Assembly: GCA_018398765.1 (NCBI GenBank)
Contig: JAHBMJ010001485.1
Coordinates: 1 to 30,211, forward strand
From: Chromera velia
Lineage: Eukaryota; Sar; Chromeraceae
DNA: 30,211 nt
Direction: 5' to 3'
Of the stretch, positions 4,845 to 27,784 are shown piece after piece (within the stretch, counting starts at the first letter, position 1; every line of letters begins with the position of its first letter). Under the pieces are notes generated by a model, which ran no database searches, had not been told where the DNA came from, and worked only from the letters and a program-made list of their open reading frames with translations. Position numbers and translations under genes: made by a program.

Positions 4845-6097
4845 CGCACGGACGTGGGTGGGTGGGACATGAGGGGGGTCTTAATTAAACGGTAGGACCT
4901 CATACGAAGCCAAAAACGTGCAGTATGGCCTTATCTGGCGGCCCCGGTGGCCCTAGAGGCCCGCGACCTACCAAAATGATCGTCAGGACCCCGGCATTTC
5001 AAATCTAGCAAAATTTTGACCGCAACTTTCCGGGGTTACCCTCAAAATCACCAAAATATCTGAAAAAACCTCAGAAAGCTCACAGCATCTGATGTCTGTA
5101 GAGGGCCAAGTTCGTTCCCTCTTGCCTTGCTTTCCTTCTTGTTGTACGTCCAGAGCAGTAGTGGTGGTAAAAGTCGCACCATTCTCCTCCTTTAAGACCA
5201 GACAGCTTGTGTCTGTGTCAGGGTGAAGTCTTGTTGCACCGCTAGTCTACTTAGATAGGTTTGGCAGTTCATACTGCGAACAGTCAGGAATTGGCCCTTC
5301 TGGCCTTCTGAGCAACATTCCTTCTTTTCACCAGGACGCCCCGAAATCGATTCCCGACAATTTTGCCCAGTGCCTCTTATCAGTTGACATCCTTCTAGGG
5401 CAGTGGAATGGGTTGCTGGTGTGTCTGCTGGTTGTGGGAAGGTGAAATTCTTTTGTGTCTTTGTTGTGGTGAAGTGATGTCTCTGGAGCATTGATCGACT
5501 TCCACTTCCCCGGGTAGGTCGTTCTGTCTTGCTCATTCCCTCTAGACATGATCGTATGCGTGTTGGGCAGTACCTCTGTGCGCTGAATGCAGGTTGAAGG
5601 CACTCAAGAAAGAGAAAGGTCTTCCGACGATTTCACATAGGCTGCCCCCTGGAGTGTATCTTTCTGTTCCTGGGCAGACTTGTCACTTGAAGTCCACAGT
5701 GCACCAACCATTCGTTGTCTCCTGTTGGAACTAAGTTACCTGGACCAGATGGAGTGTGTCGGTATGCATTTTATCATCATTGATGCATCATAGCCCTTTA
5801 TTTACTTCTGAGTCCAGGGAGGCCTCTTTGGCCTCTTCAGGTGTCAGAGCTCAGACGTCTGTTCTTTGCACTCCCTGTGTGTATTGGAGTCGTTCTTTCT
5901 GCACCAAGCAGCTAGAGAGAGTCTAAAGAGGCGAACTGACGTCTCCTAGGTGAGTTGGATGGGGTTCAGAAGCGGGAAGAAAGGAAGGCAGGGCTCTCTT
6001 CTCCTTTCCCTATACGAGGCCAAAATCGTGCAGTGTGGGCGGCGGGGTCCGGTTTGATTAAGACCCCCCTCATGTCCCGCCCGCCCACGTCCATACG
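4845..6097. mobile_element. TIR DNA element, 1.25 kb, non-autonomous
   Basis: Terminal inverted repeats of 46 bases lie at 4845-4890 and 6052-6097. They match at 41 of 46 positions, and all five mismatches are C/T or A/G transitions. The core is ggacgtggg followed by G-rich sequence, gacatgagg and ggtcttaat. Just inside, a 28-base block (catacgaagccaaaaacgtg... at 4901-4928) recurs in the same orientation at 6011-6038. The interior has no convincing transposase; minus-strand open frames at 5192-5603 have no recognised domain. No clear target duplication is visible (flanks read taaa and aaat). Probably a non-autonomous element moved in trans; superfamily unknown. Confidence 0.7.
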
Positions 6098-6727
6098 AAA
6101 TTGTACGTGTTTTAAAATTTAAGAACGATAATTAACTGATTCCATATCATCGAAAATAATATTTTAAATAAATCTAGAACTAAATATACAGCATTGCCAA
6201 AAGTATAGGAAATAAGACGAAAGATATATAGACACTGTTTAAAAAAAAATTCCGAAGTTATTTTTCGAGCCTGCGCTTCTACTAGCGCTTCTACCCTGAA
6301 TCTACAGTCAATCGGTTTTTATGGAGGAAGTCTAGGAGGAAGTCGTCTTGCTCACTTTTGAAAGGTGCATAGGAAAGTGCTGACCTAGGTGCTGACGAGT
6401 GAAAGAAACGATCATTCTCAACCCAACGAAGTTGCATGCTACTAACTCAGATAGTAACTTTCCTGCTTTCTTGGCTCGTTCTATCAAAGCTCTCTCAAAA
6501 ACAGACAAGAACTCTACACGAGAAACCAACAACCTGCTTCAAGGGTTCGAAAGAAAACAGAAAGATCGTCCAAACATCCCCTGTTCCAACCGTTGTGTTT
6601 CCATTCGGAACAAGCAAAAAGCATCGAAAGAGAAATAACGTGCATGCACACAAAAGTACTCGACTGCAGTAGAGAAGTGCACAAAGAGAAAGTAGCCTGC
6701 CTCCTTGACTTCTGACTTTCTTTCTCT
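6098..6727. other. AT-rich gap, no gene seen
   Basis: The first 200 bases are AT-rich with A and T runs. The rest has overlapping open frames in several registers, none with domain character. It lies just past the 3' end of the minus-strand ankyrin-type pseudogene and may hold its terminator, which cannot be pinpointed. Confidence 0.4.
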
Positions 6728-8881
6728 CTAGTGACCTGTACACCGACCAACCTGCATAAGCAAGGTCGCAAGCTTCCACTTCCTGCGGATTGCCATTTCA
6801 GCAGAGCCACCGAACCTCACGAAGCTTCTGTCCGAGACAACGTACGCCAGAGCCTGAACCCTCCTCTGGAGGTGAGGCTCCTCAAAACTCTCCTTCAGAT
6901 CCGCCCCCCCCCTCTCAATCATCAGTCGCATGAGCATCTCATCCTTGAGACGGCAAGCAAGCAACAGAGCTGAGGGAAGAGTAAAATTATTATATGAGGA
7001 CGGACTCTCTCCAGTCTGGAACCTCACTTCGGCCATGGTGGAGGAGGAGCTTCATTGGTTGGAAGGAACTTCGATGCATCGATCAACTTGGATCATGATG
7101 CATCATCGTCTCTGGAGTAGAACCACGAACAGATGAGTGAGTGCCTCGAGAGGAGACATCAATACCACAGGATCAACTACAGGGGCACTAGCTTTTCTCA
7201 TGCAATAATTTTCTAGCTCGTCCATGCGCCCACCAGGTCTAGCTGCCCCGCAGTGGAGCAGCAGCGCAACCAGCGCCACGCGTGTGTGCCTTCCCCCCAA
7301 AATTGACTCCACCAAAGGCACACGCCCAGGAAATGAAGCGGACATACCGGCAACCCCCCCGACCCCTCCAGCAACGACCTCCCTCCCCCCTCTTCCCCCC
7401 CCAATTCCAGAGGAGAAGACTGAGGGAGTCCGGCCAGCCCCACAGTCCCTGTCAACTTCTGAGCAGAAGCTTCGCTGTCAGGAACAGGCCTGAACGGCAC
7501 GCCAGAGACAGGAAGGGGCGTGTGACCCTCTTCTGTGTTCACATCCAAGTCGGCATGCCCCTGCGTCTGCCAGAACCTCCAGCAGCTCAAGTGCCCGCTC
7601 CTGTTCGACCATCCTTGCCCCTCCACACTGCACGACATACGTAACCGCCCTCCTCTCCCATACCTCCTTCACCCCCCCCTGCCACACGGTGTTCGGATCC
7701 GGCCCCCCCTCTCACAAACCCTCCGCACAAGGTCCACGTCTTGAGAGTGACAGGCACCCGACAGTGGGGCAACGAGATTCACAGTAGAGGGAGGGAGGTG
7801 CGTTTGAGGACTGGCTGTGTAAGGAGATGGGAGAATTAAGGGGGGCATCGCGCGCCGTGCGCAATCAGGAGTTCTGCAATGTGCACCCGCAGTGCGACCC
7901 GTTCAACCGTTTCGGGACTCTTGGGAAGAAAACTCGGCCCCCAACTCTTCAGTCTACCAAACGGTTGCAACGCAAGAACATGCGCTGACTGGGTCTACCC
8001 CCCTCATGAACAGAGCCCAGACAACTCTCTCCTCCCGTTCCTGCCAAACCAAAAACGCCAAACCGATTCGGGTCTGCACCTCGTCTGGCTCTTTCTGCCG
8101 TTCCTTCTCTGGGCGCACGAATCTCCCAAGCGCACACGTCCACCCGAGGGACAACAGATCTGCACACCCGACTTTGTCTGCCTCAATCAAAGCGACAAGG
8201 AACGGCAGCCACTGCGGATGCGGAGTTTCAAACCATGTGTTTGGGTGCACCATCTTTCCTTTCAGCAAAGAATGAAGACGGTAAACAGCCAAGGCAGAAA
8301 CTGCAGTCAGCGTGAAGTCTTGCGACCAGACTGAGCCGTCTTGGGTAAGGAAGTACTCCATACACTTGTGGGACTGAGTTCTCGAGCACCCGTCGCAGGG
8401 TTTATCCCTCTCAACGCGAGCATCCGTTCAAGGGTTTTGACGTTGTCTCGCTCGAGGCAATCCTACAGAAGTGTCCAAACTTCCTCTCGTTAAAACGGAG
8501 TCGAACGAAGGACATCGCTCCAAGACCGAGAGGCGAAGCATCATCTCTCATGGCAAGCAGCCCCTTTGACAGAGAGGATGCTCTCCAAAAGCCGCGATAC
8601 CCCAAGATGCCGTTGTAAGACAGAAGACGCGGGACATCAGAAATTTCAATGGAGTTCGTTGTTATTGCGACAGAGGCAGAAGCGATTTTGTCAATTCAGT
8701 GACCTTCTGAAAGCTCGATCGACAAGCTGCTCGGGATATGTGACCCATATGAGCTTCCTCAGCATGAAAGCGTGCGCAGGCGAATAGGGATCAAGACCGG
8801 AGTACGGTAGAGCGTTAGCTGAGAACAGAAAACTTGAGGCCGGATCCGCACCGCACAAAAATCGATCGGTCTTCTCGTCAC
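6728..8881 (-). pseudogene. Decayed ankyrin-type gene, many frameshifts
   Basis: Read right to left, the minus strand shows protein-like sequence that jumps between all three frames: 8881-8690, 8645-8411, 8460-8345, 8361-7954, 7945-7690, 7687-7478, 7530-7213, 7345-7103 and 7036-6728. Segments carry ankyrin-like helix pairs and turns, for example LLACRLKDEMLMRLMIERGG near the end, VALVALLLHCGA, HIAELLIAHGA, LELLEVLADAGA, and GADP or GVDP turns. Such repeats form protein-binding solenoids. Several frame changes fall in G or C runs (for example 7705-7712). With at least eight shifts and stops, a pseudogene is the simplest reading. Short introns or homopolymer sequencing errors could explain some breaks. 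No full repeat consensus survives, so the ankyrin label is moderate. Confidence 0.55.
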
Positions 8882-9087
8882 GCGGAATCAGCCCGAGTCA
8901 GCTCATCTCAGCCCAGCTGAGAATCACCCTCTGTCTACCATGGCTATATGTGTTCTTTAGGGGTCGTCTGCAGGTCGACTGGATTTGAAAGTTCTGCAAT
9001 TCTAAATCTGTTCTCCAGCTTGCATCACTGCTACATGAATTCACTCCATGCAAGACAATGACAGTTGAATGACTTGTCTGACTCCTC

Positions 9088-9211
9088 ATGGCCCGGAAAG
9101 CGAAGCTGAGAGGGCACTTAACAAAAAATACACCCCCCAGACTACACGGATGGCCCGGAAAGCGAAGCTGAGAGGGCACTTAACAAAAAATACACCCCCC
9201 AGACCATACGG
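9088..9211. repeat. Tandem duplication, 62-base unit
   Basis: Two adjacent copies begin at 9088 and 9150, each starting atggcccggaaagcgaagct and running to a C-run and agac. They differ by two transitions. The unit is a diverged relative of part of the 150-base repeat further right (shared cggaaag, gctgag and ggcactt blocks), so both belong to one repeat family. Confidence 0.85.
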
Positions 9212-9215
9212 ATTG

Positions 9216-9413
9216 ATTGAGGTTTTTGTTATGCATGCCGCGTCCCCGTGTATGAGGGGCGGATCTAGCCTAGTCTGTCAAAAGGTTCCGGTTCGTCCCA
9301 TCTGTTCAGACCATACGGATGGCTGCGTCCGACGTTTACAGGAAGATCTGACGTACTAGGCTAGATCCGCCCCTCATACACGGGGACGCGGCATGCATAA
9401 CAAAAACCTCAAT
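9216..9413. repeat. Perfect 59-base inverted repeat, 80-base spacer
   Basis: Positions 9216-9274 and 9355-9413 are exact reverse complements over 59 bases. The spacer (9275-9354) contains ccatacggat and ggctgcgtccgacgtttaca, blocks that also occur in the repeats to either side. The structure could fold as a long hairpin. Identical arms contrast with the diverged repeats elsewhere in the window, which points to recent origin or ongoing gene conversion. Confidence 0.9.
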
Positions 9414-9417
9414 CACA

Positions 9418-9695
9418 GATCTGACGCACGCAAAACTCGGCCCCGGAAAGATAATTCAGCTGAGGAGGCACTTTCCAAATTTAAAGCAGGGGCAACAAAA
9501 AGAAATTTCGCTTTCCAGGCCATTCGCACAGAGTGCGTTAGATGGCTGCGTCCGACGTTTACAGGAAGATCTGACGCACGCCAAGTTCGGCCCCGGAAAG
9601 ATAATTCAGCTGAGGAGGCACTTTCCAAATTTAAAACAAGGGCAACAAAAATAAATTTCGCTTTCCAGGCCATTCGCACGGAGTGCGTCAGATGC
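9418..9695. repeat. Tandem repeat, 150-base unit, 1.85 copies
   Basis: The unit beginning gatctgacgcacgc occurs at 9418 and again at 9568, with about eight substitutions over the shared 125 bases, six of them transitions. The end of the unit (ggctgcgtccgacgtttaca) is also found at 9320, in the spacer of the neighbouring inverted repeat. The period is exactly 50 codons and one frame is open through both copies on each strand, but no domain is recognised, so I call it a repeat and not a gene. Confidence 0.85.
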
Positions 9696-9868
9696 ATGAC
9701 TAGTTCATGAGTCACGCGCGTCCATCACGCGTCCGTCGATCTCCATGCATGCATACTCACAAATTTCTCTTTCGTAGACCGCGCGCGCTCATTTTTTTTC
9801 CGGGGCAGGCTTTCTAGAGTGGCCCTTTTTAGCACACAACGCCAACCAACGCCAATCAGCCAGGCGTC

Positions 9869-10511
9869 ATGCCTCCAGGGGGTGGCTCAGCTCCCAGGGG
9901 ACGCCGGAGAGGCCGTATTCGCCCTTCTCCTACTCTGATATTCCCAATGATCGTCAACCAGCCCAAAACGCCTGACCTTAATGGCATGCTTTCACAATCT
10001 GTCGCCTCCTCTCCACCACTTTTCCACTCGTTGCCGCAGGCCGTCACACTAGCCACCGTCTACGCCTTCGGCTTGTCTATTCTCTAGCAGCAGAGCGCAG
10101 CGGAATCCATTACGTCGCTCGCGGTGGTGATGACACTCCTTGGCCAAATTGACTGGCTCGACTGCATCGTACAGGCAATAGTAATCGGCTTTGCTGTTGC
10201 CTTACATCTACTCCTCTATACCCTCTGTGCCTTCGCCAGCTGCCTTAATTGCCACCATAATCTCTGCAGTGGTTAAGACAGGTTTCGAAGTTGGGGTTAT
10301 TGCCCTTGAAGCGACAACCTTTGTCTGGAAGGTGGTGTGGGTCTCCCTGGAGGCCACATTCCTCGGGGACAAAGTCGAGCCAAGGCGGGCAACATGTATA
10401 TATTCTATCAGGGAGCTGTTCCGCAAAGCCAGGTCAATTCGTTTTGCAGGCATCATTGTCCTGAGTGCTAGCTTGTATAGCGCTAGCAGTCTGCGTAGGC
10501 AGAGCCGCGTC
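9869..10511 (+). pseudogene. Element ORF1: basic N-terminus, membrane-like segments
   Basis: Starting at ATG 9869, the frame has an arginine-rich head (PRGRRRGRIRPSP), then a hydrophobic segment ending LSIL and a TAG at 10085. The same frame continues past the TAG with QQSAAESITSLAVVMTLLG and a strongly hydrophobic stretch (IVQAIVIGFAVALHLLLYTL) to TAA 10274. A second frame takes over near 10233 with two more hydrophobic helices (AALIATIISAVV, FAGIIVLSASLY). Non-LTR ORF1 proteins are usually nucleic-acid chaperones with coiled coils, RRMs or zinc knuckles. A multi-helix membrane-like ORF here is unusual. I cannot assign a family. It could be a separate captured gene. Confidence 0.4.
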
Positions 10512-11485
10512 ACCTCTTACAAGTGCTACAATCTTTCCTTCCCTCCCTGGCTCTGGCCATATGTGTGCAAGCAGAGCAATCTCGCTCACTGGAGGAATTC
10601 ATACCAGGGTGACCCTCAAGGGAGTAACACAGACAGGTACCCCCGTTTTCGATGCTGTATCCAGCACGGAGGCGGCCCTGCCCTCTTCCCACGGCTCAAC
10701 CTCATCCTCAGGCCTACGTAGGCCCAGGGGGAAGTCAAAGCAGAGGGAGGGATGGAAGGGAAGGGCGGTCCCCCCTTTTCACCCACACCAAGAAGGAGTG
10801 GAGGTCGAGCCAGGCGGGGTGCAGGCCGGCGATCTCTATAAAGAGAACGGGGTTTTAAGGTGGGAGAGGGTCTGGCACCCCAGGTAGGGAAGGCACCAGC
10901 CAGGGCGGACCTATTCCTACGGCGGTGGAGCAACCACCCGCCCAGGCCCAGAGGCCTCGAGGTGGGGAGGCGCCGACCAGCTGGTGACAGCTGGCCTCCA
11001 CCCTTAGCAAACGCATGCGGCAGAGAGGGTTGTCCAGCGACGTCAGGGAGGGCCTGGGCGTCTTCTCACGGCGTTCGTATTCTCTTCCCTCTTTCTTTCG
11101 CAGATGCAGCAGGTAGGACTCCAGGGCCGTCGGCCTCCCCCTCCCAACCTCGAGGCATGGCACCTGCTAGCCCGTATAGGGGGATTCGGGGGGGACATCA
11201 ACAGGGCTGTGCACTCCATCAAGGGCAACATACCGTCACTAGAAGGAGACAACAACCGGAGGGACCGCCACGGGGGGGAATCGGACAGAGAAGATGAGGA
11301 GCTGTGGACCCAGGGAGAACTGATCGAACCAGACGAGCTTTCTCCTTGTACCAGGCCTCCCATTGCTCCTTCTAGAATCAACTTGGAGACCTGCTTTGCG
11401 CGGCACCTCCATCTGATACAGCGTTGGTCAAATCCCGTCCTAGCGGTTACAGCACCCCAATTTGCGACACCCGGGGCCTAACGAG
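10512..11485 (+). pseudogene. Proline/arginine-rich coding-like region of the element
   Basis: Open frames at 10465-10887, 10860-11297 and 11104-11481 overlap and are rich in P, R, G and S. The last is the most protein-like (a predicted helix around HLLARIGGFGGDINRAVHSI, then charged residues). They probably represent one disordered region of the upstream protein, broken by frameshifts. No domain is recognised, and GC-rich composition alone can keep such frames open, so confidence is low. Confidence 0.25.
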
Positions 11486-11659
11486 CACCACGCCAGGCCG
11501 TAGGGGGGATGAGACAAACGGGGAGAGAGAAAAGACGGATACAGAATGTGCCACTTCCTTCAAACCACGGGCCACAGCGGAGATAGGATGTATCTGACGC
11601 AAGCTCAGCCTCCGCCTCAGTGAGCAGTTTTGCTCCCGCTCCCGCCTCCTTGCTGACAG

Positions 11660-12569: not shown

Positions 12570-13190
12570 ATACTAAATCCTAGAATAAAGGCATTTTTAA
12601 ACTTTTTTCAACGTTTTTCATACTATAGAGAGAATACAGAAAGACCCCCTGACTGCCTGGGGTGNCAGTCCGTAAGGACCGCCTGGGGAAGGTCATATAT
12701 AAGACCCCAGGCGGCCCTGACATACTAAATCCTAGAATAAAGGCATTTTTAAACTTTTTTCAACGTTTTTCATACTATAGAGAGAATACAGAAAGACCCC
12801 CTGACTGCCTGGGGTGCCGCAGGCAGTCCGTAAGGACCGCCTGGGGAAGGTCATATATAAGACCCCAGGCGGCCCTGACATACTAAATCCTAGAATAAAG
12901 GCATTTTTAAACTTTTTTCAACGTTTTTCATACTATAGAGAGAATACAGAAAGACCCCCTGACTGCCTGGGGTGCCGCAGGCAGTCCGTAAGGACCGCCT
13001 GGGGAAGGTCATATATAAGACCCCAGGCGGCCCTGACATACTAAATCCTAGAATAAAGGCATTTTTAAACTTTTTTCAACGTTTTTCATACTATAGAGAG
13101 AATACAGAAAGACCCCCTGACTGCCTGGGGTGCCGCAGGCAGTCCGTAAGGACCGCCTGGGGAAGGTCATATATAAGACCCCAGGTGGCC
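12570..13190. repeat. Four tandem 158-base repeats with hairpins
   Basis: Copies start at 12570, 12722, 12880 and 13038 (each atactaaatcctagaataaa). Copies 2 and 3 are 158 bases long and essentially identical; copy 1 is six bases short at the ambiguous base n (12665). Each unit has an AT-rich half and a GC-rich half with two stems: ctgcct...aggcag, and ccgcctgggg...ccccaggcgg (12837-12872 in copy 2) whose loop holds tcatatataaga, a TATA-like string. The fourth copy changes its right end to a caggtgg variant. The period is not a multiple of three, so open frames through it are not genes. Confidence 0.95.
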
Positions 13191-13210
13191 CGTCAGGGCC
13201 ACCTGGGGTC
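13177..13210. repeat. Perfect 15-base hairpin, 4-base loop
   Basis: The arm gaccccaggtggccc, loop gtca, then ggccacctggggtc preceded by g form a perfect stem. It closes the 158-base array and resembles the stems inside the units and the ggtggcccacctggggtacc palindrome near 12383. A role as a transposase or replication signal is possible but not shown. Confidence 0.85.
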
Positions 13211-13265
13211 ATGACGGGCCGCCTGGGGTCAGCGCAGGCAGTCATTGTGAAGGTTTAGACAGCAT

Positions 13266-16200
13266 GCAGACGATGGAGGGGATGCTTTAGAGCGGCCGGC
13301 AGGGTGGGAAAATAAATGGGCCTTCTGGAATTCTGTCGATTGGACAGTGGAAGGGTGGGACGACTTGGACATTCCTACTGATAGGCACATCAATCCGAGA
13401 CTGCGCCCCGCCTTGGCAGCTGTCATTGAAGAGATTGTAGACCGGATAGGGGACGAAGACGCCATCAAAGCAGAACGTGCATGGAAAGCTCTGGCCTATT
13501 TCCCTTCGATCTTTTTCTGTAAGAACAGACGAGGGGGACCTGCTTCTTTGTTAGTGTGCAAGCGGCGGATCAAAGCCTTTTGGGAGGGAGACTTTGAGTC
13601 GCTAGTGCGAGTTCTGTGGGAGGACGTGCATGGTGCGTATGAGGGAGAGATAACGGAAGGGCCAGGAGAGGAGGGGGCGTCGTTCCACCCAGCAACGTAC
13701 GGAAGACGACCTGGTTTCCAAATGAAAATAAGTGCAGGGTCTGATAGAGGAGGAGGCGCTGTCAAAAGCCGCCTCCCGTCTCTAATCCTTCGGGGTGGTC
13801 CCAGCATCACCAGCTACCTTCAGGAAGGTAGCAGATATGTTTCCGCGTAGAGCCCATCTTCTTCTCCTCCGGGGCCCGCCCCAGAGCGACTCTCAATCAC
13901 AGTCCTCAGGCTCTCAGTCTCCTCTGCTCACACTGTTTTGTGACAATCTGCTCGAAACGATCAGGTCTGCGCCAAAGGGATCAGCACAGGGGGTCACGGG
14001 ATGGCGTTACAAACACTTGAGCTACTTTCTCCCCAGAGACGGCTCAGTACAGGCACGCATCCTTCATATTGCCACATGTCTTGCAAGAGGAGACGCCCCA
14101 GTGGGTTTTATCTCACTGCTCGCGGGGGGTAGGTGCTTCGCCTTGAATAAGAATGCCAGAGGAACAGAGGTGAGACCCATTGTGGTAGGGGACGTCCTTC
14201 GTTGGTGGGTGACGAGGGCAATCCTGCTGGAGTTCGGCATACAGTTCGAGCGGCACCTGGGCCCCTTACAGTTTGCAGTGCGTACAAGGGCAGGCACAGA
14301 GAAATTGTTCGGAATCCGTTGTGTACAGACGTACTTGCAGCGGTCCCCCTCGTCAGCTATGCTGAACTTAGACGCATCGAACGCTTTTAATACATGTGAC
14401 CGGCAGGTGATTATGAACCAGGTTTATGCTCATTTCCCCCAGTTGTACTCTTTCTTTGCTTTGTGGTATAGAACTCCTTCAGATTTAGTCTTCAGAGACC
14501 AGTCAGGGCTCCTCCGGAGGATCATATGCGAAGAGGGGGTACAACAGGGGGATGTGGTGGGTCCTTTTCTCTTCTGTATGGGGCTAAAGCCTTCCCTAGA
14601 TGGGTTGGCAATGCTGGGGGATTTGCAGGCAAAGCACAGGGGAAGGGGGTGTTTCGTTGGCGCTTTCATGGACGACGCATCTATGGTTTTCCCCCTCTGT
14701 CCTTTCCAGCAGATCCCCACAGACGGACACGACGACAGCATCTTGCATGCGTGGAGGGTGGACGCAGCCAGGTTGCAGAGTTTTGGGTTAACCCTGCGAC
14801 CTGACAAGAGCTCGGTCCACTCACCTTCGTGGCAAGGGCTTAGGGAATGTCCGAGCGCATACCCATCACCGCCTGGAATCACCCCATCCCTTCCAGGTTT
14901 CCGACTCTGCGGGGCAGCCAGTGGGACTACAGAGTATCAGAGTGCACACTTTGATAAAAAGCTGAGAGAGGCGTGGGAATTGAGCCAGGCAGTGGAAGAG
15001 TACGGTGACCCCCAAGGAGCCTACCTCCTTTTCCGGTTCTGTGTTCTGCCGAAGCTGATTTATCTGACAAGGATTATGGGGGACGTCATTACGCTAGGCG
15101 AATGGTCTCAGGCGGACAGAGAGCTAGGTGAATCGTGGGCGCGTATCATGGGTATGACGGAGCAGGAATGGGTGTACGGGGAGGTGCGGAACCAGGCGTA
15201 CTTACCGCAGTACCAGGGTGGACTAGGTCTTATCTGCTTTCGAGCGACCGCAACGGCAGGTCTGCTAGGCAGCTGTGGGGCAACCCTGTCGACGGTGATA
15301 GAACGTCTCACCGACCAGTCCTTCTTCTTGGGCCCCAGTCAGTCCCCAGACAGAGATGCCTTTTTTGTACTCCCCTGGCTGCAGGCGTCGAAGAGGGAAT
15401 ACGAGAGAGCAGAGAGTGCGATGGAGTCTGTGAAACTGAAGGCCTACCATCCTCTGCACCGAGGATGGGACACTCAGTCAGGATGCTGGTGGAGAGCCCC
15501 TCATACCCAAGAGCAGCAGAAGATAACGGACTCTCTCCATCAATCCCGCAGGGTCTTCTTCTTCTCTAAGGTAGGGCTGTCTGAGCATGTCCGTCTCCAT
15601 TCATGTTCTCGCAATGGAGCCTCCGCGTGGTTTAGCGCCATCCCGTCATCAGGTTAGTTGCACTTCCCTCCGGCAGTGTACAGAGTCGCACTCCACATTC
15701 GTTTGGGCCTCCCAATCGGATTTTCCGAGATGCGAAGGGCAGGTGTGTATGTATGTGGGTCACTGCTCGACCCTCGGGGCCACTATGCATAGAAATGCCC
15801 GAATGGGGGTGGAGTGCACTGGCGGCATGAGCAGGTGAAAGGTGTATTTACCCAGATCCTGAGGGGTCTCCGACATACTCATGTGCTTGAGGAGACGACT
15901 TTTGGGCACTTCGGAGTGGCGACGGACTCAAGACTCACCGAGGAGCGCAATAAACGAGTGGACCTTTTCGCCTCTCTATCGAATGGAGACACCCTCCTTG
16001 CGGACGTTTCTATGACTTTTTTTATTTCTTCCGATGCTTCCCACCTGCGTACAAGGTCTAAAACAGCAGGAGCAGCAGCAAAGACGAAGAGCGAGGAGAA
16101 AGTGTGGAAGTACACAGTAGCAGCACGCGCTGTAGGATTGCGGTTTGTCCTATTGGTCTTCGAGACCTTTGGACATCCGGATAGGGAGACTGTCTCTTTC

Positions 16201-18350: not shown

Positions 18351-18889
18351 AACTGATTGTACTGACAATTGAAACTTTTATACTAGAAAGTGACTTTTAA
18401 AAAATTGGTTTCTAAAACATTAAAATAGATAGTTTAACCTTTAAACTAATTGATTTTCATAATTCATTTAAGACTATTTAAGCTTAGTAAGATGTTTAAA
18501 AAATAAAATAAAAAAATGTATATATAGAGTATATATTTTTTCAAAACCATAAATTATCTGGTACCTATCATCGTAAATTAACGGTAAGACGAAAACACAA
18601 TAAAAAATGTATCTGAATGCCTCTGAATCGATCTGATTGAAGCATTGCTTCTCATGATCATAACTGTTTTGTTTTCAATTCATATGAGGCACTGCTCAAC
18701 GGCAGGCGTGTCAGGGGCAGGGGGGGGGGAGGGGGGGAGCATCTCAGTATATATTAAACATGCACACCCGTAAACGCCACCTGCAGAAATACGTGCACAT
18801 AAACAGAAAGTCAGTCAAATCGCCAGAATACACATAAAAGCATGCATACAAATATAACCTGTATTTTTAATTTGCATCAGAATGATACA

Positions 18890-19320
18890 TAAAAGCAGGA
18901 AGACCAAAATTGGGAAAGCAATCGGACGGGCAGGAAGGCCAAAATCGGGAAGGCAATCAGGCGGCCAGGAAGGCTAACATTAGAAGGCAGTCAGGCCGCC
19001 AAGAAGACCGAAATTGGAAGGCAGGCATGTGGGCAGAAAGAACGAACTCTGGGAGGCAGTCAGACACACAAGAAGGCCGAACTTGGGAAGACAGTCGGAC
19101 TAGCAGGAGGAACAAAATTGGGAAGGCCATCGGGCAAGCAGGATGACCGAAATTATGAAGCGTTAGAAGGAAACTTAGGCGGGAAGGAAGGCCAAAATAG
19201 GGAAGGCAATCAGGCAGGCAGGAAAGCCAAAATTGGGAAAGCAACTGGACAAGCAGGAAGGCCGAAATTGTGAAGTCAGTCAGGCAGACAGAAAGGCCAA
19301 AATTTTGAAAGCATTGAGGC
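18890..19320. repeat. Degenerate 30-40 base minisatellite
   Basis: About twelve imperfect copies of a purine-rich unit around caggaaggccaaaattggga with aggcaatcaggcaggc. Copies vary in length and sequence. Open frames on both strands are low-complexity products of the repeat (QEGQN- and RRQSGRQ-like). It lies within the 18.35-20.43 kb element. Confidence 0.85.
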
Positions 19321-19690
19321 AGGTAGAAAAAAACACAGGCTCGGCACGTAGGGGCGCTGCTCCCTTTCGCAGTCTGAAGACTGCGGCCTTAACAAAGATG
19401 TAAAGACCTACCTCTGGAGGAGTTGAGGAAGGACTGGGAGCCAAAACAAGCATCTTCTGGAGGAGACCCACGACCTGCAAAGAGCAGAGGAGGGGGGCAG
19501 GGGTGAACAACACACGCAAAGGGAGACGGCAGTTTTATGCCTTGCCGAGGGCAGACCGGTCAGTCATTCAGAAACCATAATGGCCAGGTTGCAGCCACAC
19601 AGGAACACTCATAGACATCGTACAAAGCCTTCTGCATGCACTAAGAAGGCTCATCTCTGCAAATAAGATTTTTTCAATTCCCTCACTGGG

Positions 19691-19917
19691 AGGGGGGGGT
19701 GGACCCTCTCGCAGGGGTACGAAGCTGGCCAATTTGGTACCCCTGGTGGAGGGGGAAGGTCCGACCTGCTCTGCAGGTTTACGTCCAAAATGTGTCTAGG
19801 AGTGTTTCCTAGACACATTTTGAACGCAAACCTGCAGAGCAGGTCGGACCCTCCCCCTCCACCAGGGATGCCAAATTGGCCAGCTTCGTACCCCTGCGAG
19901 AGGGTCCACCCCCCCTT
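19691..19917. repeat. Long hairpin: 111-base arms, 5-base loop
   Basis: Left arm 19691-19801 and right arm 19807-19917 are near-perfect reverse complements, separated only by gtgtt. I count about five mismatches, all transitions. A transcript through it would form a nearly perfect long double-stranded RNA, so it could act as a small-RNA precursor. As DNA it would be an extreme cruciform. The open frame covering it on the minus strand is palindromic and is not taken as a gene. It sits in the right half of the TIR element, so it may be a foldback inserted within it. Confidence 0.9.
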
Positions 19918-20433
19918 GTTGCTGGTGGAACAATACAAAACGAACTGACCTGATTGAGCGACCCAAACCAGTCTGGCAACCCTTCTAGTTGTCAGACAAC
20001 TCCTTTACACCGAGGCAACCACTCCCACGAGCAACCGGAGGTGTCCAGCCAACACAGATACCGGAGGCAGTGTACTCCCTCCTTACATCAGTGTGCGAAT
20101 TCGGCGTATTCCATTAAAAGTAAAAGTTAGTTTGTTTGTGTATTACGCTGCGCATTGTCAGATGCCTGCAGAGTCTGCAATCACTCTCTGACATATCAAT
20201 ATACTATAACTCTTTTACCTCACTCACGTCCAACAATTTCCAACATACACACCACAAACCCATTAAACCTTATCTTTAAAAGTTGTTCATACTTTTATAT
20301 AGGTAAGAAACAATAAATAGAATCATTCTAAGTGCTTTAAAGACTTAGATTTTTATATAAACTTTAGTGTGATATATAAAAAATTAAAAGTCACTTTCTA
20401 GTACAAAAGTTTCAATTGTCAGTACAGTCAGTT

Positions 20434-20785
20434 AGTATAAAACATTGACATCATCTTCCTCATTTCCTCTCATCAATGATGTGCGATCAAGCTTCTAGAT
20501 CACACTAAATAAGTGCTAGACAGCTTGTTTTGATGCATGCTCAGTGAGGAAGGCGGTTCATCACGCAGCTCCATGGTGTACGTACATACAGCAAGATCGC
20601 AAACACAGTCCATCTGGTGTGCGGTCATCATTAGCAAATCATATGTTTATCGTTTTCCTCCTTTTTTTGTCCATTTCTCTGTATCTTTGCGTCTTCTTTT
20701 GTTTGCAAATTTATGGGAAGAGTCAAGCGCAAAGCGCTTGAGCCTGCATTCCAGCCCCGCGCCATCTGCTTCCGGCGTGTCGCTC
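20434..20785. other. Upstream region of the 20.8 kb gene
   Basis: No supported exon except a possible N-terminal ATG frame at 20713 (MGRVKRKALEP), which cannot be joined in phase as well as the ATG at 20786. A pyrimidine-rich tract lies at 20655-20700. Promoter elements cannot be assigned. Confidence 0.35.
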
Positions 20786-22022
20786 ATGGTGGGCAAGGAG
20801 GGAGAAGAGTCTCTAAAGACAGGTGGAGAGGGCTCAAACGATGAACGGCATGGGTGATGCCATGATAAAGTGTGCTCACGGTCAGCAAAAATCCATTACA
20901 ACCTTCATCCTCCTCCTTCTGACGACAGAAAGAGACTGCTGCTGAGGCGACTTCCCAAAAATCAGAGTCTTTTACCGAAGAGCTTTTGACATCAGTATAC
21001 AGAGGGCTTCCCTTGTCCAAACCTTTTTTCTTTCAACTGCTGGACGACATGATTGTTGAGGAGAAAGCAGGTGCACTGGTATAGTTTTTAAAGGTTCTCT
21101 AGAAAGAGGTAAGCTGCAAAGGATTCTATATGATAACAGATTTAATTTGACTTTGGGTTTCATTTCACGGTATGTTCTTCTTCTCCAAACGCAGCGTGGC
21201 AGAAGAAACCGAAGACGCAGAGATCAAGTGAGTCGGTGCGAGGGGGGGTAAGGTGGCTGGGCTGGAATCATCACATGGTTTTCACAAAACAGCAAAATGC
21301 TCTAATCGGGTCAAGAATTGAATCAAGGAAAAGCAAGGACTGCACGCAATAGAAAGAGTTTTTGACATAATTAAAACTGTTCTCCTGCCCTAAACTGACC
21401 TTGTGTATGCAGGAAGAAGACGTCGACAGACGACAACGTGCAGGAAGAACTCGAGGAGTCTGACTCCTCCGATGTATGTGGTTGTTCGCTGTTGCCCCGC
21501 TTCCCCGCCCTCTTTTCCCGCGGCGTTTCTTTTTCGCGGCTTCAGAATCTCTGATGCACGCATCAACCCATGCAGGCTTTCATTTGCCTGCAGTCAATCT
21601 TTCTCCCCCTCTCTGTCGCCATCTCTCTCTCTCTCTCTCTCTCTCTATGCGCACATATGTGTGCATGCGCTTTTACATGGCTCTCTGTGCTTTTCGTGCT
21701 CTGCCGGTTTTCTTTTCTCCTTTTCTCTCGCTTGCACTCTCTTACACTTTTTTTGTTTCGCTTTCCCAGCTCCTTCATTTTTGCTTTCTGGAATCCCCTC
21801 TCTTCATTGTTTTTTTTGTCTGTTCGCAATCTTTTCTGCTTTTTCCGTCTGCACGGGCATTTTAAAACCTTTTTTCTTTGTGCATGCGCTCTGTTTCTCT
21901 CGCAGACCGAGTCAGAGGGGTCCATGGATTACAAAATGAGAAAGAAACTGTGTGGGACGTTCATGAATGAAGGAGTCAGCAGCTTCTTCATTGTGTGGGA
22001 ACTTGCTCACGACGCTGTCTGA
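20786..22022 (+). CDS. Five-exon small acidic/basic protein, unknown family
   Basis: Exons 20786-20822, 20933-21070, 21203-21227, 21413-21473 and 21906-22022 join in phase throughout (378 bases, 125 residues). Donors are gtggag, gtgcac, gtgagt and gtatgt; acceptors end AG, the last in ctgtttctctcgcag. The protein starts MVGKEGEESLKT. It then has a folded-looking segment (SFTEELLTSVYRGLPLSKPF, FFQLLDDMIVEE), an acidic Ser/Asp-rich linker typical of nuclear proteins, and a basic-aromatic end (MRKKLCGTF...FFIVWELAHDAV). The final TGA at 22020 may be secondary: the same frame continues to TAG 22101 with sequence matching the later exon copies (NPxxxxFDELVEFLHKRYPDLL). Exon 3 is only 25 bases. The start and small exons are by-eye choices. 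Confidence 0.5.
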
Positions 22023-22144
22023 CACAACCCACGCAATTGTGGGTTTGACGAACTTGTCGAGTTCTTGCACAAGAGGTATCCCGACCTCTTGACAAGGAAG
22101 TAGGATAAGAAACCCAACCCTTCACATCAAAACAGGATAACAGG

Positions 22145-22230
22145 GTGTGTGTGTGTGTGTATGTGTGTGTGTATGTGTGTGTGTGTGTGTGTGTGTCTGT
22201 GTGTGTGTGTGTGTATGTGTGTGCATGTGT
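22145..22230. repeat. (TG)n microsatellite
   Basis: A TG dinucleotide run with a few TATG and TCTG interruptions, lying between the first and second copies of the duplicated exon, hence probably intronic. Confidence 0.9.
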
Positions 22231-22505
22231 GCTTGCGCGTTTGTAGTAAGGGTGTGCATGTGCTCTTGTATGCCTTTGTGTGGCTTCATGTACCCTTCTA
22301 TTAGTTTTTTCTTCGTTTGCTCTCCCTTACACCCCCTTGTATTTTTTTTTTTTTCGTTTTGCTTTCCTATGTCCTAATATTTGCTTTCTTAAATTCCCTC
22401 TCTTGATTGATGTCTCTCTCTGTTCATAACCTTTTTTGTTTTCTCTGTCTGCACGGGCATTTTCGAACCTTTTCTTTTTATGCACGCGCTCTGTTTCTCT
22501 CGCAG

Positions 22506-22700
22506 TCCGACTTCAAGTTTTGGGAAGATCATGGGAAGAGAAAGAAGCTGGCCTGATTCAACTACTTCGCTGCTTGGGAAGTAGCTTATGAGACCGTGCA
22601 GAGCAACCCTCACGACATAGAGATTGACGGTCTCCTTGAGTCCTACTATAAGAAGTATGGGGACTTGCTTCAAAAGACAGATACAAAACCTTCCGGCTAA
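22506..22700 (+). pseudogene. Second copy of the duplicated terminal exon
   Basis: It is preceded by the same acceptor as copy 1 (gctctgtttctctcgcag) and by about 120 bases of homologous intron (shared ctgtctgcacgggcatttt). The frame reads SDFKFWEDHGKRKKLA, then TGA at 22554, then FNYFAAWEVAYETVQSNPHD and DGLLESYYKKYGDLLQKTD to TAA 22698. Compared with copies 1 and 3, roughly six codons are missing around the TGA, so a small deletion created or accompanied the stop. Could be an unused alternative last exon. The sequence on to 22848 has another open frame ending at a gtgagc donor, status unclear. Confidence 0.5.
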
Positions 22701-23376
22701 GACTCCTCCTCGAAGTCAAAAGAGTCTACGCAGCCTATATGGAGTACATCCTTCCCGGTTGCTTACCAAAGAGGACTGGCTTCTCCTAGTGATGGCATCT
22801 ATGGAGGTGGTCTCTGCTTTTCGTCAGAGAATTGAAGAGGTGAGCTAGCCAACAAGTTGTTTATGTTTTTTCCTGTATGGCACTACGTAGCATATGCTTT
22901 TCTGTTGTCTCTTTGTGCTTTCGAAATATCCCTGCCAGTGGCTATATCTCCGCGTGTTTGTGTTGTATGCTACCTAGGGGGACAAAATTAATGCATATTT
23001 TTTTTTAAAAAAAACGAAGATTTGAGTTTGTCAGATAAAAGGGCCGGCGTTGGACCAAGCTGCCCAGGTAGACTTAGTGAAGACTTATACTAACTAGTTG
23101 GGTCCTATGGGCCTCACATTGGGTCAAAATTTTAGTTTGAAGTCCTAGGATTTTTTTTTAATTCCTAGAGCGCTCCTAGACTACTATTTTTTCAATTTTA
23201 CAGATTTGACTTATAAAACAAAAGGAGAGAGCTATATATAAATAGGAAGTTATCTTTTAGTCTAACATTAGATTACTTTTACTAGGGTGCCACAAGCCCA
23301 TAATGATTGTGTTGAAGATAAGGTTCCTGGATATGATATGCATTAATTTTGTTCCCCTAGGTAGTATCGTATTTCA

Positions 23377-23378
<2 letters not shown>
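22701..23378. other. Gap between exon copies 2 and 3
   Basis: The first 150 bases have an open frame ending in FRQRIEE at a donor-like gtgagc (22840), possibly a further exon. The remainder is AT-rich with T and A runs near 23000 and 23150 and no coding signal. Confidence 0.35.
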
Positions 23379-23429
<51 letters not shown>

Positions 23430-23590
23430 CATATACACATACTCTCTCTCTCTCTTTCGCTTGCTCTCTCTCTCTTTTTCTCGCTCTCTGAGACTCTCTT
23501 TCTCTCTCTCTACCCCTCTCTTTCTTTCTGTCTATCTATCTGTCTATTTCTCTATCTATTTCTATCTATTTCTCTGTCTCTCTTAGACTA
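23379..23590. repeat. Compound (CT)n-(CA)n-(CT)n / TCTA microsatellite
   Basis: A (TC)n run, a (CA)n run of about 14 units, then more CT and TCTA-like repeats. It directly precedes the acceptor of exon copy 3 and so extends its polypyrimidine tract. Confidence 0.9.
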
Positions 23591-24033
23591 TCTCTCAGTT
23601 GTGTACACGCTCTGTTTCTCTTACAGTCAGAGCCTAAGTTTTGGGAGGATAACAGAAAGAGAAAGAAGCTTCTGGGAATATTTTTAAAGGAGGCTGGAGT
23701 CAACTTCTTCGTTCCCTGGGAAGTGGCCATAGTTGCACTAGTACAGTACAGTGTAGAGGCAAAACTAGTACAGTACAGTTCAAGCGGCCCGCCCTGCTCT
23801 ACTTCCCACTACTTTTTTATAAGCTTTTAAGCTAAGTTTTAGGCTACTTAATTTATTGTAACTTAAAGTCTATTTTTTTTTATGTTTTTAATAACTTTTT
23901 ACTAGTGTTTCAGTAAGTGTTCATTATGTTTTTATAGTAAACATAAATTAGAAAAAAAGATGGCTTTAAGTGAAGCCTCTCAACCACGGGAATACAAGGT
24001 TTTTGTTCCACCCCTCGGGTCCTTAGATGAGGT

Positions 24034-24555
24034 TTAAATTTCTATGTTGAAGTTGAGGGGCGGAGGAAATCCAGGGCAACGATGTCCTTGTAGATGACGT
24101 CGGAGTGGCGCAAGGCAGTACAGGCTGCGACACCCCCTCTTCAGCTTAACTGTATATTGTCGGGGATGATAGTGTCGCACCTGCTTACAATACAGACACT
24201 CCACCTCCACCTCATGAGGCCAATAGAAGTGATACTTCTCATTCGATTCATCATTAGACGAATCGATGATGATTCATTTGTACCGAGGAGCAATACTCTT
24301 CACAGCAACTTGCAGGTACCCCTTACTTTCAAGGAAATCTTGAAACTCCTGTCTTTTTGACTGGTACTCTCTATAAGCTACACGTGAGAGCTGCTGAAGC
24401 CTGATGTAACGAGAGGAGGGGACGTCGGACATCGTACCAAAAATTCTGGGAAAAAGCGTCAGCGATTTTAGTGAAGCTCTGTGCCCAACTGGGTTGAAAT
24501 TTCTGTTGAGGTCCGGCGCGCACTGCAACAAAATACAGCCTGAAGCAAGAAGCAC
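24034..24555 (-). pseudogene. Zinc-binding-like protein remnant inside the transposon
   Basis: Reading leftwards, the frame gives SRYIRLQQLSRVAYREYQSK and RQEFQDFLESKGYLQVAVKS, meets a TGA at 24274-24276, and continues in the same frame with IIIDSSNDESNEKYHFYWPH and a Cys/His cluster: C-x2-C (ECLYC), later C-x5-C (GCRSLYC), then H and HRC. It ends at TAA 24034-24036. The cluster could bind zinc, perhaps as the DNA-binding part of a transposase or of a captured host protein. I do not recognise the family. One TGA in an otherwise good frame over 170 codons suggests a young pseudogene. Confidence 0.5.
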
Positions 24556-24564
24556 GCATTTTTA

Positions 24565-25005
24565 AGTTTTGAGCGCGCCAACATCGTAGCCTTGAAGCTC
24601 ATTGCCGACAAGGTGGACAACCTCTCCTGGTGGCACCGGGACGATCTTGTGGAAGCAGCCCCCAAGAACGCCTCCCTCACCATGGAGGTCTTTCAGGCTG
24701 TTAACGTGGGGGAAGTCTGTGAGCAGGGGTTCTCTCTCTATGACTAGGTTTACTCTTAGAAGAGAAACCGTCTCACCCAGCCACACCAGGACTTGCTGGT
24801 CACCACACATACCAACCTCCACCTCCAGAAGGTTCATCAGAGGAACGCTGGGCACTACAGGAGAGAGACCCAGATTTTGGGAATCCAAGGACTCGACCTT
24901 GCATTGGACAAGTCTGCCGAGGCATTTGATGATGAACTAAATGGAGAGATGGCAGTTGAATACTTGAAGAGCATCGGACTGGAGTTCAGAGAGGCTCCTT
25001 TCTAA
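24565..25005 (+). pseudogene. Coding remnant inside the transposon, unknown family
   Basis: One frame runs from about 24565 to TAA 25003 with only two in-frame stops, TAG at 24745 and TAG at 24757. It reads FERANIVALKLIADKVDNLS, WWHRDDLVEAAPKNASLTME, then QGFSLYD before the stops and KRNRLTQPHQDLL after, ending GEMAVEYLKSIGLEFREAPF. The composition is that of a folded alpha/beta protein. Both stops would read as glutamine if CAG. No family is recognised. It starts within 15 bases of the minus-strand remnant, so the pair is divergent. A minus-strand frame also covers 24562-24888, but the plus frame looks more natural. Confidence 0.42.
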
Positions 25006-25383
25006 GTCACTGTAATTCATGATCACTATATCATAACTTAGCACACGTTCATAGAGCATTAACGTAGGTTAAGAGACCCCCTAGGACGCTAAAAATAGAA
25101 GAAATTTTTTTTAAAGGTCTAGTACAGTAGTACAGTACAGTGTAGATATTATAGTACAGTAGTACAGTACAGTACAGTGTAGTACAGTGTAGTACAGTAT
25201 ACTTATGCAACTATGGAAGTGGCTCATGATGCTATGAGGAGTAACCCTCGCGAGACAGACTTCGACGGTCTTCTCCAGTTTTCATATGGGAAGTGTGGGG
25301 ATTTCCTTCGCAAGACAGACTCAAAACTATATAAAACCATGAATCGGGAGAGAAAGACGCAGAGACAAGGGGGAAGAGAGTGA

Positions 25384-25866
25384 ACGAGGGAGCGAGGGAG
25401 GGGGAAAGTATGGGAAAATCATTTTTCTTAGTAGCTTTGACATACTTTCACGACGGATGAACAAAGTAGGAAGACCTTCGATTGAAACAAATCAATTTAT
25501 AAATTGACTAATCAATCAAAATATTAGTCAAAATAAGCTTTATACTAGGTAAATTGATGTTTAAATTGTAATTTATAAGAGAGATACATATGCAGACATA
25601 TTGAGTAGTAGATTAAGTAGTACTGAGTAGCATTGATACTATACATTTGAAAGAAATGAATCGACTTAATTATATAGAACTAGATACCAATATATATCCC
25701 CAAAACAGTTTTTCTACCGTTTTTTTTTTAGTTCTAACTTGAGTTGCAAACCACGTTTTGGGGAATTAAATCCCCAACCCCAAAACACCTCCAATTTTAC
25801 AAAGGGAAATTGTATATTCTACAAATATAGAGTGAAATTTATCGAATTATTATAAACTTGCATGGA
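25384..25866. other. AT-rich gap, no gene seen
   Basis: After the end of exon copy 3 the sequence is strongly AT-rich without open frames of note. It forms the left flank of the LTR element and could contain a poly(A) signal for the upstream gene (several aataaa-like strings), none decisive. Confidence 0.4.
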
Positions 25867-25871
25867 AATAG

Positions 25872-26147
25872 TGTTGTGTTCCACCCTGACGCGGCCCACA
25901 CAGTTGCCCCGGCAGACCTGGCACGCCTCTCCCTGTGTGGTGCGGAGCGCCTGCATTTATTCCATCCACAGCACCTCCATGAATATTTCTGGCTCAGCAC
26001 AGCGTTCTCTATCACTGCTTTGTCCAGGTGATCGATGGAATCAAGCCTCTCCTCCTATATGATAGACTCACGTGACCGCGATCTGTAGATTTATTGTATC
26101 ATGCCAAGACTGCATGCCTGTATATGGAATCTAGCTGGTACACAATA
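25872..26147 (+). repeat. 5' LTR
   Basis: A 276-base direct repeat of the 3' LTR. It shares gatcgatggaatcaagcctc and other exact blocks. It lacks the roughly 19-base extra segment (gcagactagggtgcagagcg region) seen in the 3' copy. TATA or poly(A) signals are not obvious. Confidence 0.9.
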
Positions 26148-26160
26148 TGGTAGCAGAGCC
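26148..26160 (+). promoter_or_regulatory. Primer-binding site (tRNA-Met type)
   Basis: The sequence tggtagcagagcc abuts the 5' LTR with no gap. It begins with TGG, complementary to the CCA tail of a tRNA, and differs by one base from the tggtatcagagc site typical of Copia-type elements. Confidence 0.8.
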
Positions 26161-26457
26161 TGGTTTTAGGTCACGTTTGAGTATCGCCGCTGCCTCTGCT
26201 GCAATCCGTCTCCTTCTTAAAAATTCGCTTTCGCAGAGCTCGTGCCTTTGGCAGCTTGTTCGCGTATCGATTATTGAAGGGACGTATAGACATACATCGT
26301 GGCGTGCACTTCTTCTCTTCTCTCGCACTTGATTTCCTCTCTTAATTAATCGAACTCTCTTGATTCATTTTCAGTCTGTCTCCTGTTGTGTCAAGGTGTA
26401 TCTTTTTTGTTTGCGCTAGCCACTTCTTTTGGGATGTTTTCTTTATTTGGTGAAATG

Positions 26458-27170
26458 TCTGTCGTTGTGATAGAACAGTTACTTCAACAGGCATGCAACC
26501 AGGCTATAGAGACAAAGATCCATGACGTTGAGACCTGCTACGCTAACCTCGCAACTGCTGCCAAGAAATTTCTTTCTCTTGCTTCTCGCAATCGCCTCGT
26601 TACAGAAGCACACAGGATCCGACAGCGTCGCGGGAAGCGTGGTTCAGGCACCAAGGGGAAGAAGAATCTATCTCCTCCTGTGATGTTTACTTCCTCTGTG
26701 GATTCTGCAGTCTGTTTGCCGACTTCAACATCGCATCCTCCACTGATTGCGAACTCTCCTCCCACCTAGCCTCCCACCGCCCAACCGCCTATCTCTGGCA
26801 CTGCAGCACCTGTGTATCATGAAAAATTTAATCAACTCTGTCCTCTGTCCTCTTCCGCAGGACCAGTCGCCCAACCTTCTTCGTCGTTGCATTGCTAGTA
26901 GAGTCTGCAACCTCCCCCAAATCGCACAGCTGACTGACTTCTTTTTTTAGAACTCTTTTGGAAAGGAAGCCTGAAAATGAATAGAGCAAGCAGCAGCCCC
27001 TGCCACCCTCCACTCCTGCAGATATAACCATGACGGTCAGCATGACTGCCCCCCATAGTCAGGTAGAGGTTACGGTTCCCTTACCGTCATCCTCTCTTCT
27101 AACTCCACCCGCAGCCGTTGATAAGACTCCTTCTAAGCCACCCGATCCGCCTCTTAAACCGAAACTCTGA
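26458..27170 (+). pseudogene. Gag-like remnant of the LTR element
   Basis: From ATG 26458 (or earlier in the same frame) the product starts MSVVVIEQLLQQACNQAIET with a helical region, then a basic stretch (RRGKRGSGTKGKKN) and a Pro/Ser-rich part to TAG 26767. The frame continues as PPTAQPPISGTAAPVYHEKF and onward, to a TAG-TAG pair at 26896-26901, then to TGA 26935. A further frame at 27030 (MTVSMTAPHSQVEVTVPLPS) runs to TGA near 27168. No zinc knuckle or protease motif is visible. It is most likely a shortened Gag. All three TAGs fall where glutamine would suit the local sequence. Confidence 0.4.
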
Positions 27171-27465
27171 CCTCCATGAAGTGGACGAATTCTGCCACCG
27201 TCTCCCTTGTGGTGAGGAAGAGCGGGATGCAGCGGCAAGGATCCTTCAGATGGACGGATCGACCCGCCCGATGCTTCCACGAGTATGGAATCTACTATAG
27301 ATTAATCCAACAACGCTGCCTCTTCCTGATGAACCGATGTTTACTGCCATGATAACTGTGAGAACCGCTTCCGCCAAACGCTTGCCCGAATCTGCTCGGC
27401 ACCTTGAAAGTTCCTTGGTGGGAGTGGTACTGGATATGATTTTGCCCTTGTCAGCTCCAGAATTT

Positions 27466-27485
27466 GAAAGAGAAGAAAAGAGGAA
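27466..27485 (+). promoter_or_regulatory. Polypurine tract
   Basis: An unbroken A/G run (gaaagagaagaaaagaggaa) four bases before the 3' LTR, placed as expected for the plus-strand primer of an LTR retrotransposon. Confidence 0.75.
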
Positions 27486-27489
27486 TCTG

Positions 27490-27784
27490 TGTTGTGTTCC
27501 ACCCTAACGCGGCTTACACAGTTGCCCCGGCGGACCCAGCATGCCTCTCCCTACACGGTGCAGACTAGGGTGCAGAGCGCCAGGGCCCTACATTTATTCT
27601 ATCCGCAGCACCTAGCTCTATAAATATTTTTAGCTTAGCACAGCGTTCTTTGTCACTGTTTTATCCAGGTGATCGATGGAATCAAGCCTCTCCTCCTGTA
27701 TGACAGACTCACGTAACCGCGATCTATAGATCTATTGTATTATGCCTAGACTGCCTGCATATGGAGTCTAGCTGGTCCATAATA
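27490..27784 (+). repeat. 3' LTR
   Basis: A 295-base direct repeat of the 5' LTR. Differences are almost all A/G or C/T changes, plus one insertion of about 19 bases and a short gap near the end. It is followed directly by the target duplication aatag. Confidence 0.9.

Follow-up and report, generated by a model that had tools for sequence, protein, structure and literature searches.

Background

Silenced transposons of plants and vertebrates are changed by methylcytosine deamination. C5 methyltransferases depend on the base that follows the target cytosine and AID/APOBEC enzymes read the preceding bases, the SRA domain is a reader of methylated cytosine, and a working DNA mark in species with DNMT2 as the only methyltransferase is disputed. 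The DNMT2 class is best known for its action on tRNA. Repeat-induced point mutation (RIP) is described, in the consulted parts of two sources, as a fungal and mostly ascomycete process (PMC9246332, PMC12543289), and a 2022 review, in the part available, calls it the only exploitation of methylation mutagenesis known so far (PMC9246332). In Zymoseptoria tritici with a functional dim2, CA sites in regions carrying 5-methylcytosine mutate during mitosis, with CG methylated and not highly mutated, according to the accessible part of that report (PMC8016269). Here we describe the decay of repeats in a 30,211-nucleotide stretch of Chromera velia DNA (contig JAHBMJ010001485.1, positions 1 to 30,211; the whole stretch is called the window below), in which dispersed elements and their copies elsewhere in the genome show directional C-to-T change, without the same bias in pooled gene duplicates.

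Results

C-to-T change in dispersed elements

In the 177.8-Mb assembly of 4040 contigs that was searched, the window corresponds to contig C1483; copy numbers are lower bounds, as only the best-scoring candidates were used. Judging by 58 light-harvesting matches in the genome, tallied per exon, the source is a photosynthetic eukaryote. Differences between copies are quoted as transitions to transversions (ts:tv). The direction of change was taken from private changes, which were polarised against the other copies of the same family.

Four transposon families of the window carried a strong excess of private C>T (with the complementary G>A) over A>G. Family A is 1.25 kb long and bounded by terminal inverted repeats of 46 nt (4845..6097, + strand; 39 other loci among the best 40 of 212 candidates), and its 19 copies held 143 C>T, 20 A>G and 30 transversions, counts that exclude its two most diverged copies, L042 and L043, with which they become 145, 47 and 54. 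Family B, 2 kb in length with terminal inverted repeats of 50 nt (18351..20433, +), contains a hairpin at 19693-19915 and gave 96 C>T, 14 A>G and 21 transversions in 13 copies, counted over the first 979 nt only. Family C, a reverse-transcriptase open reading frame (RVT_1; 13795..15657, +) that probably belongs to a non-LTR element (LTR, long terminal repeat), gave 245, 28 and 23 in nine copies, and family E, a piece of a dispersed element (23726..24400, +), gave 72, 8 and 10 in seven copies. These four families, pooled without family D or the LTRs, amounted to 556 C>T, 70 A>G and 84 transversions. Family D, a 401-bp miniature inverted-repeat transposable element (MITE) with 32-nt terminal inverted repeats (22967..23367, +), contributed 30, 14 and 21 in 15 copies, and 25 rows of a second LTR family, LTR2, contributed 40, 6 and 7. 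All six sets taken together thus held 626 C>T against 90 A>G, with 112 transversions, which bears out the C-to-T direction proposed for the repeats in the preliminary description, and per available site C>T exceeded A>G by 4.6- to 11.8-fold.

The LTRs of individual elements likewise differed mainly by transitions. A 1.9-kb LTR element of the window has its 5′ LTR at 25872..26147 and its 3′ LTR at 27490..27784 (both +), and the 5′ LTR query had 43 genome matches, with the best 40 of 52 candidates scored. Directly after the 5′ LTR stands TGGTAGCAGAGC (26148-26159), which we take to resemble a primer-binding site, and AATAG borders the element on both sides (25867-25871 and 27785-27789), a pair that reads as its 5-bp target-site duplication. 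Because of these flanks and the primer-binding-site-like stretch, the two LTRs most likely started out identical when the element inserted and were mutated later in place. Ten same-locus pairs of a first LTR set gave 258:37 and eight pairs of the second family 95:10; with one pair common to both sets, the 17 pairs came to 334:46 over 5221 columns, or about seven transitions per transversion, and about ten once the two most diverged pairs are set aside. In the second family, mates were sought for 10 LTRs and two were found. Among the 17 pairs, L001 and L096 are inverted neighbours and not ordinary 5′/3′ LTRs, and in L009 the two copies lie head to tail and close together; three loci were left outside the pool: L006 (14:8), the L007 array with its overlapping pairs (for example 232:40) and the L014 array (77:65 and similar counts). 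The first of these arrays (C3906:2700-12699) consists of head-to-tail units of about 1.75 kb that contain pieces of the window LTR and are about 86-94% alike; the second (positions 1-1361) is a 61-nt tandem array with a ts/tv ratio of about 1.1, without bias.

Family D differed from C (p = 1e-6) and from E (p = 0.002) and stood slightly above the gene control (p = 0.04). The window copy of the MITE had three private transitions and five transversions, and it adjoins the window copy of family E, at 9:0. Given the weak bias of this 0.4-kb family, short elements may be marked less. At least 34 further MITE copies, at 89-93% identity, were present among the best 40 of 1250 candidates for the whole query, and the window copy sits between tandem-duplicated exon-like stretches. 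A comparison of family A with its 75%-identical relative at L082 (about 15:15) raised the idea that active lineages fix changes without the bias; this is not claimed, since columns common to many copies were also rich in transitions (18:0 in A, 22:1 in B and 49:2 in C).

Sequence context and strand

The C>T rate depended on the next base and was roughly symmetrical between strands. Across the six sets, the per-site frequency of C>T was.345 at CA,.457 at CG,.196 at CC and.211 at CT, with a pooled p value of 4e-23 for the next base and of 0.55 for the previous base; the next base mattered in five of the six sets singly, D being the exception. The ten LTR pairs of the first set had.241,.261,.093 and.096 at the same four contexts, and differing sites in the eight pairs of the second family were 41/340 (.121) at CA, 34/308 (.110) at CG, 6/292 (.021) at CC and 14/425 (.033) at CT. 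Overall, CpA changed about 1.7 times as often as CC or CT in the pooled sets and 4-6 times as often in the second LTR family, with CpG equal to CpA or higher. The base after CA had little influence in the ten LTR pairs, where CAA, CAC, CAG and CAT all lay at.20-.30, and CGT (.11) was below CGA, CGC and CGG (.30-.34). Plant-type CHG methylation (H being A, C or T) of the CMT kind was rejected, because CAG (36/162) and CTG (15/148) were unequal and CAG was no higher than the other CA sites. Strand counts were 131 C/T and 127 G/A in the ten LTR pairs, 71/74 in family A and 122/123 in family C; only in family B, with 38 C>T and 58 G>A, were they uneven (p = 0.05).

Gene duplicates and arbitrary DNA

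Five chosen pairs of duplicated light-harvesting loci, aligned in seven stretches with some loci shared, served as the gene control; this material is mostly coding and was compared, unpolarised, by ts/tv and context. It gave 141:125, so that the transposon pattern reflects no general mutation bias: the LTR pairs differed from it with p = 5e-23 (Fisher) and from an intron-type duplication in the window (37:20) with p = 4e-5, both values being rough because alignment columns are not independent. The light-harvesting duplicate L068/L071, 98% identical in 1272 columns with introns and flanks counted in, showed 9:12, with 8:6 in the non-coding part and one difference at 162 CA sites; a second gene duplicate with its flank showed 12:11 over 762 columns. 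The preliminary description had named the same transition ratio in single-copy introns as a result that would speak against its claim. Approached through these duplicates, the claim stood for the chosen pairs, at about 1:1, and less well for three gene pairs that lean to transitions (24:10, 8:0 and 5:1). Many overlapping pairs were kept out of the gene pool, including L064/L066 (8:0) and L069/L071 (4:6), and the histone genes, searched as a further control, had too few copies. In genes, CA was the lowest context (.029) and CG was raised, so only the CpA excess is peculiar to the transposons. On contig C63, a light-harvesting match lies about 8.5 kb from a copy of the family B transposon.

An arbitrary sample of 72 kb from eight long contigs was more varied. 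Pairs between loci gave 35:10 and 31:7, with 20:2 for one locus against another, and repeats within a locus were mixed (1:1, 1:4, 8:20, 4:13, 5:2, 10:6 and others, with 17:6, 17:4 and 7:3 at L087).

Repeat pairs within the window

The excess of transitions had first been reported for six repeat pairs of the window, and our realignment agrees with those counts within one or two. The terminal inverted repeats 4845-4890/6052-6097 differed by five transitions and no transversions and those at 18351-18400/20384-20433 by 2:0, the hairpin arms 19693-19801/19807-19915 by 5:0, the units of the 62-nt tandem repeat (starting at 9088 and 9150; 9088..9211, +) by 2:0, and those of the 150-nt tandem repeat (9417-9544/9567-9694; 9417..9694, +) by 6:2 in 128 columns, all as reported. 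For the LTR pair of the 1.9-kb element, aligned as 25871-26147/27489-27784 and given earlier as about 27:2, we count 29 transitions and two or three transversions depending on the alignment. The five small pairs pooled to 20:2 (binomial p = 0.009 against a 2:1 ratio and 0.0002 against the gene ratio); the LTR pair, as 29:3, was the strongest of the six (p = 0.002 and 6e-6, respectively), with 19 of its 29 transitions at CA/TA.

This excess is true of the six pairs and not of all repeats in the window. The duplicated intron/exon-like stretch at 21659..22510 (+; 21659-21910 and 22252-22510), an internal control outside the transposons, had 37 transitions and 20 transversions with no clear next-base preference, the 35-nt arrays at 18.9-19.3 kb gave 61:33, 25:20, 16:9 and 13:7, and a repeat at 3277-3512 was intermediate (14:4). 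Four tandem copies of 158 bp at 12570-13191 are nearly identical, with one transition and no transversion among the aligned copies, and are far younger than the other window repeats.

Tempo of the changes

No burst of mutation is needed to describe the LTR pairs. Across the 17 pairs, a model with transitions proportional to transversions had a -lnL of 74.51, compared with 74.19 when an offset in transitions was allowed, a comparison of modest power given the few pairs. The burst model was rejected: its best offset, 0.016 per site, gained only 0.3 log units and fell to zero without the two most diverged pairs, and the optimiser for this model gave numerical warnings. A hint of a transition plateau in the first LTR set (about 20 at one transversion and 25-38 at nine or ten) was lost once the second family was added. 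Permutation tests for runs of C>T or of G>A along the copies were negative in family A (p =.71), family B (p =.54) and family C (p =.75); both results fit slow decay.

Methyltransferase, reader and deaminase genes

Profile searches with PF00145 and TIGR00675 returned the same three loci, all DNMT2-like. Two are clearly so, their best solved relatives being DNMT2 or tRNA C38 methyltransferases; the third matched more weakly, with E values of 4e-4 and 0.03 at best, and its exons carry PPCQPYT and FTKGYG, which we read as DNMT2-type motifs. No RID or DIM-2-like gene was among these loci, within the limited sensitivity of such searches in intron-rich genes. DNMT2 is usually single-copy, and here three separate loci (L022, L021, and L023 with L079) occur in one genome; the introns of the third gene, at L079, abound in short simple repeats of purine/pyrimidine and CA/GT type. 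An SRA domain split over two stretches of C2797:69898-70705 scored over the cut-off (E 1e-12 and 1e-9), and this locus is a candidate methylcytosine reader. The APOBEC_N search gave a single match, below the cut-off (E 0.88), and other deaminase families were not searched.

Discussion

The explanation we favor, at a probability of about 60%, is the gradual deamination of a cytosine mark at CpA and CpG on silenced transposons. Inserted and silenced copies would bear this mark, most likely 5-methylcytosine, on both strands, most densely at CpG and CpA and more sparsely at CpC and CpT, and the marked cytosines would deaminate to thymine over time, which would give about seven transitions per transversion in LTR copies and about one in gene duplicates. 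We infer that the mark is 5-methylcytosine, that it lies in heterochromatin and that its writer is either a DNMT2-type enzyme or a methyltransferase that the searches missed.

Several observations weigh against this explanation. One LTR pair stands at 4:4, family D is weakly biased at 44:21, and older matches in the arbitrary sample are weak (35:20 and about 15:15). Family E has a CG excess without a CA excess (CA 15/73, CC 19/68), and a previous-base effect is present in the ten LTR pairs (p = 4e-4), where change is rarest after G, as well as in B (p = 0.02) and in E (p = 0.04). In the transposons, C>T at CC and at CT likewise exceeds A>G, so the mark would need breadth, and genes themselves have more differences at CG (.108) than at CC and CT (.056; p = 0.0002). 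TpA/ApT was.60-.79, with no TpA excess, in 12 copies, four each of A, B and C. Finally, no C5 methyltransferase beyond the DNMT2-like ones was found with PF00145 and TIGR00675, although split exons could hide others.

The alternatives differ in what would turn cytosine into thymine and in where they would act. Active, methyltransferase-dependent mutagenesis in dividing cells, in which an enzyme or its partner lifts C>T above passive deamination as with Dim2 of Z. tritici, would fit a CpA excess that is present in transposons and absent from genes; in the isolate of that fungus with a functional dim2, C>T makes up more than 95% of mutations and over 98% of these changes fall at CA, in the portion of the report available (PMC8016269). 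CpG is mutated about as much as CpA here, unlike in Z. tritici, and none of the three methyltransferase loci found is DIM-2-like, so we consider this mechanism unlikely. Slightly less likely again is a process without any mark, in which unmodified cytosine deaminates everywhere and is poorly repaired in the condensed chromatin of transposons. It requires no DNA methyltransferase, C>T exceeds A>G whichever base follows, and genes too show somewhat more change at CpG, but plain deamination should not favor CpA in transposons alone, the preference seen in the pooled next-base effect and in the position of CA as the lowest context in genes.

True RIP, in which homology triggers a burst of mutation in any duplicated DNA during the sexual cycle, was the bold cause offered in the preliminary description, with methylation decay as the simpler one. 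The repeats do show C>T with CpA among the targets, and a length threshold would give the weak effect on short elements. RIP, however, should hit any long near-identical duplicate, and L068/L071 (1272 columns, 98% identity, 9:12, CA 1/162) and the flanked duplicate at 12:11 were not hit; C>T and G>A were not clustered into strand tracts in A, B and C, no transition offset was needed in the 17 pairs, a test of weak power, TpA/ApT stayed at.60-.79, and the methyltransferase genes found were DNMT2-like only. Classical RIP is therefore disfavored and, to us, improbable, given the sparing of the 1.3-kb gene duplicate, and methylation decay is the better fit of the two causes. An AID/APOBEC-like deaminase editing transposon DNA would account for C>T on both strands and for the previous-base effect in the ten LTR pairs and, weakly, in B and E, although this effect is smaller than that of the next base. 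In the six sets pooled, however, it is the next and not the previous base that matters, and in the LTR pairs TC is not raised and GC is lowest, a pattern unlike AID/APOBEC motifs; together with the sub-threshold APOBEC_N match, this makes such editing very improbable. The least credible account is the ordinary transition bias of the genome, met by chance in repeats: some gene pairs are also rich in transitions, but neither the pooled gene pairs nor the intron duplication approaches the ratio of the LTR pairs.

A bolder version of the favored CpA/CpG mark is that a transposon-mutating defence has evolved in a non-fungal photosynthetic eukaryote, with a DNMT2-type or other writer, an SRA reader, active conversion to T and exempt gene duplicates. 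We regard this as doubtful. If deamination of the CpA/CpG mark is correct, mutation spectra alone would expose a transposon-specific cytosine mark in which CpG is, unusually, joined by CpA, in a photosynthetic eukaryote where the methyltransferases found all belong to the tRNA-methylating class. It would also make testable whether DNA can be marked by DNMT2-type enzymes or by a methyltransferase that escaped the searches, and whether transposons are controlled by mutation outside fungi. Among the titles and abstract openings listed, in a search that left most subscription journals uncovered, we found no account of a CpG-plus-CpA transposon pattern in organisms other than fungi, and a term search of the main texts of three DNMT papers (PMC9998398, PMC12344493, PMC5890265) returned no mention of Chromera.

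The transposon decay was compared with four described systems. As in DNMT2-only organisms, all methyltransferase genes found are DNMT2-like, but the presence of an SRA domain and the way in which the transposons mutate point to a working DNA mark here. Ascomycete RIP likewise produces repeats with C>T and CpA among the preferred sites, but here no burst is needed, no tracts were seen, a long gene duplicate is spared, CpG equals CpA, no RID or DIM-2-like gene was found by the two profile searches and the host is photosynthetic. The mitotic CA>TA mutation of Z. tritici is similar in being C>T at CA linked to transposons, and in the available part of that report it is tied to the 5-methylcytosine machinery (PMC8016269), but CG and CA mutate alike in our copies. 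Decay in plants, with its CHG context, and in vertebrates, with CpG, differs in that CpA is here about equal to CpG, that the third base after CA is irrelevant and that only DNMT2-like methyltransferases were found. The decay in C. velia nevertheless resembles methylcytosine decay in those organisms in being a gradual C>T/G>A change on both strands of inactive transposons, dependent on the next base and affecting genes less.

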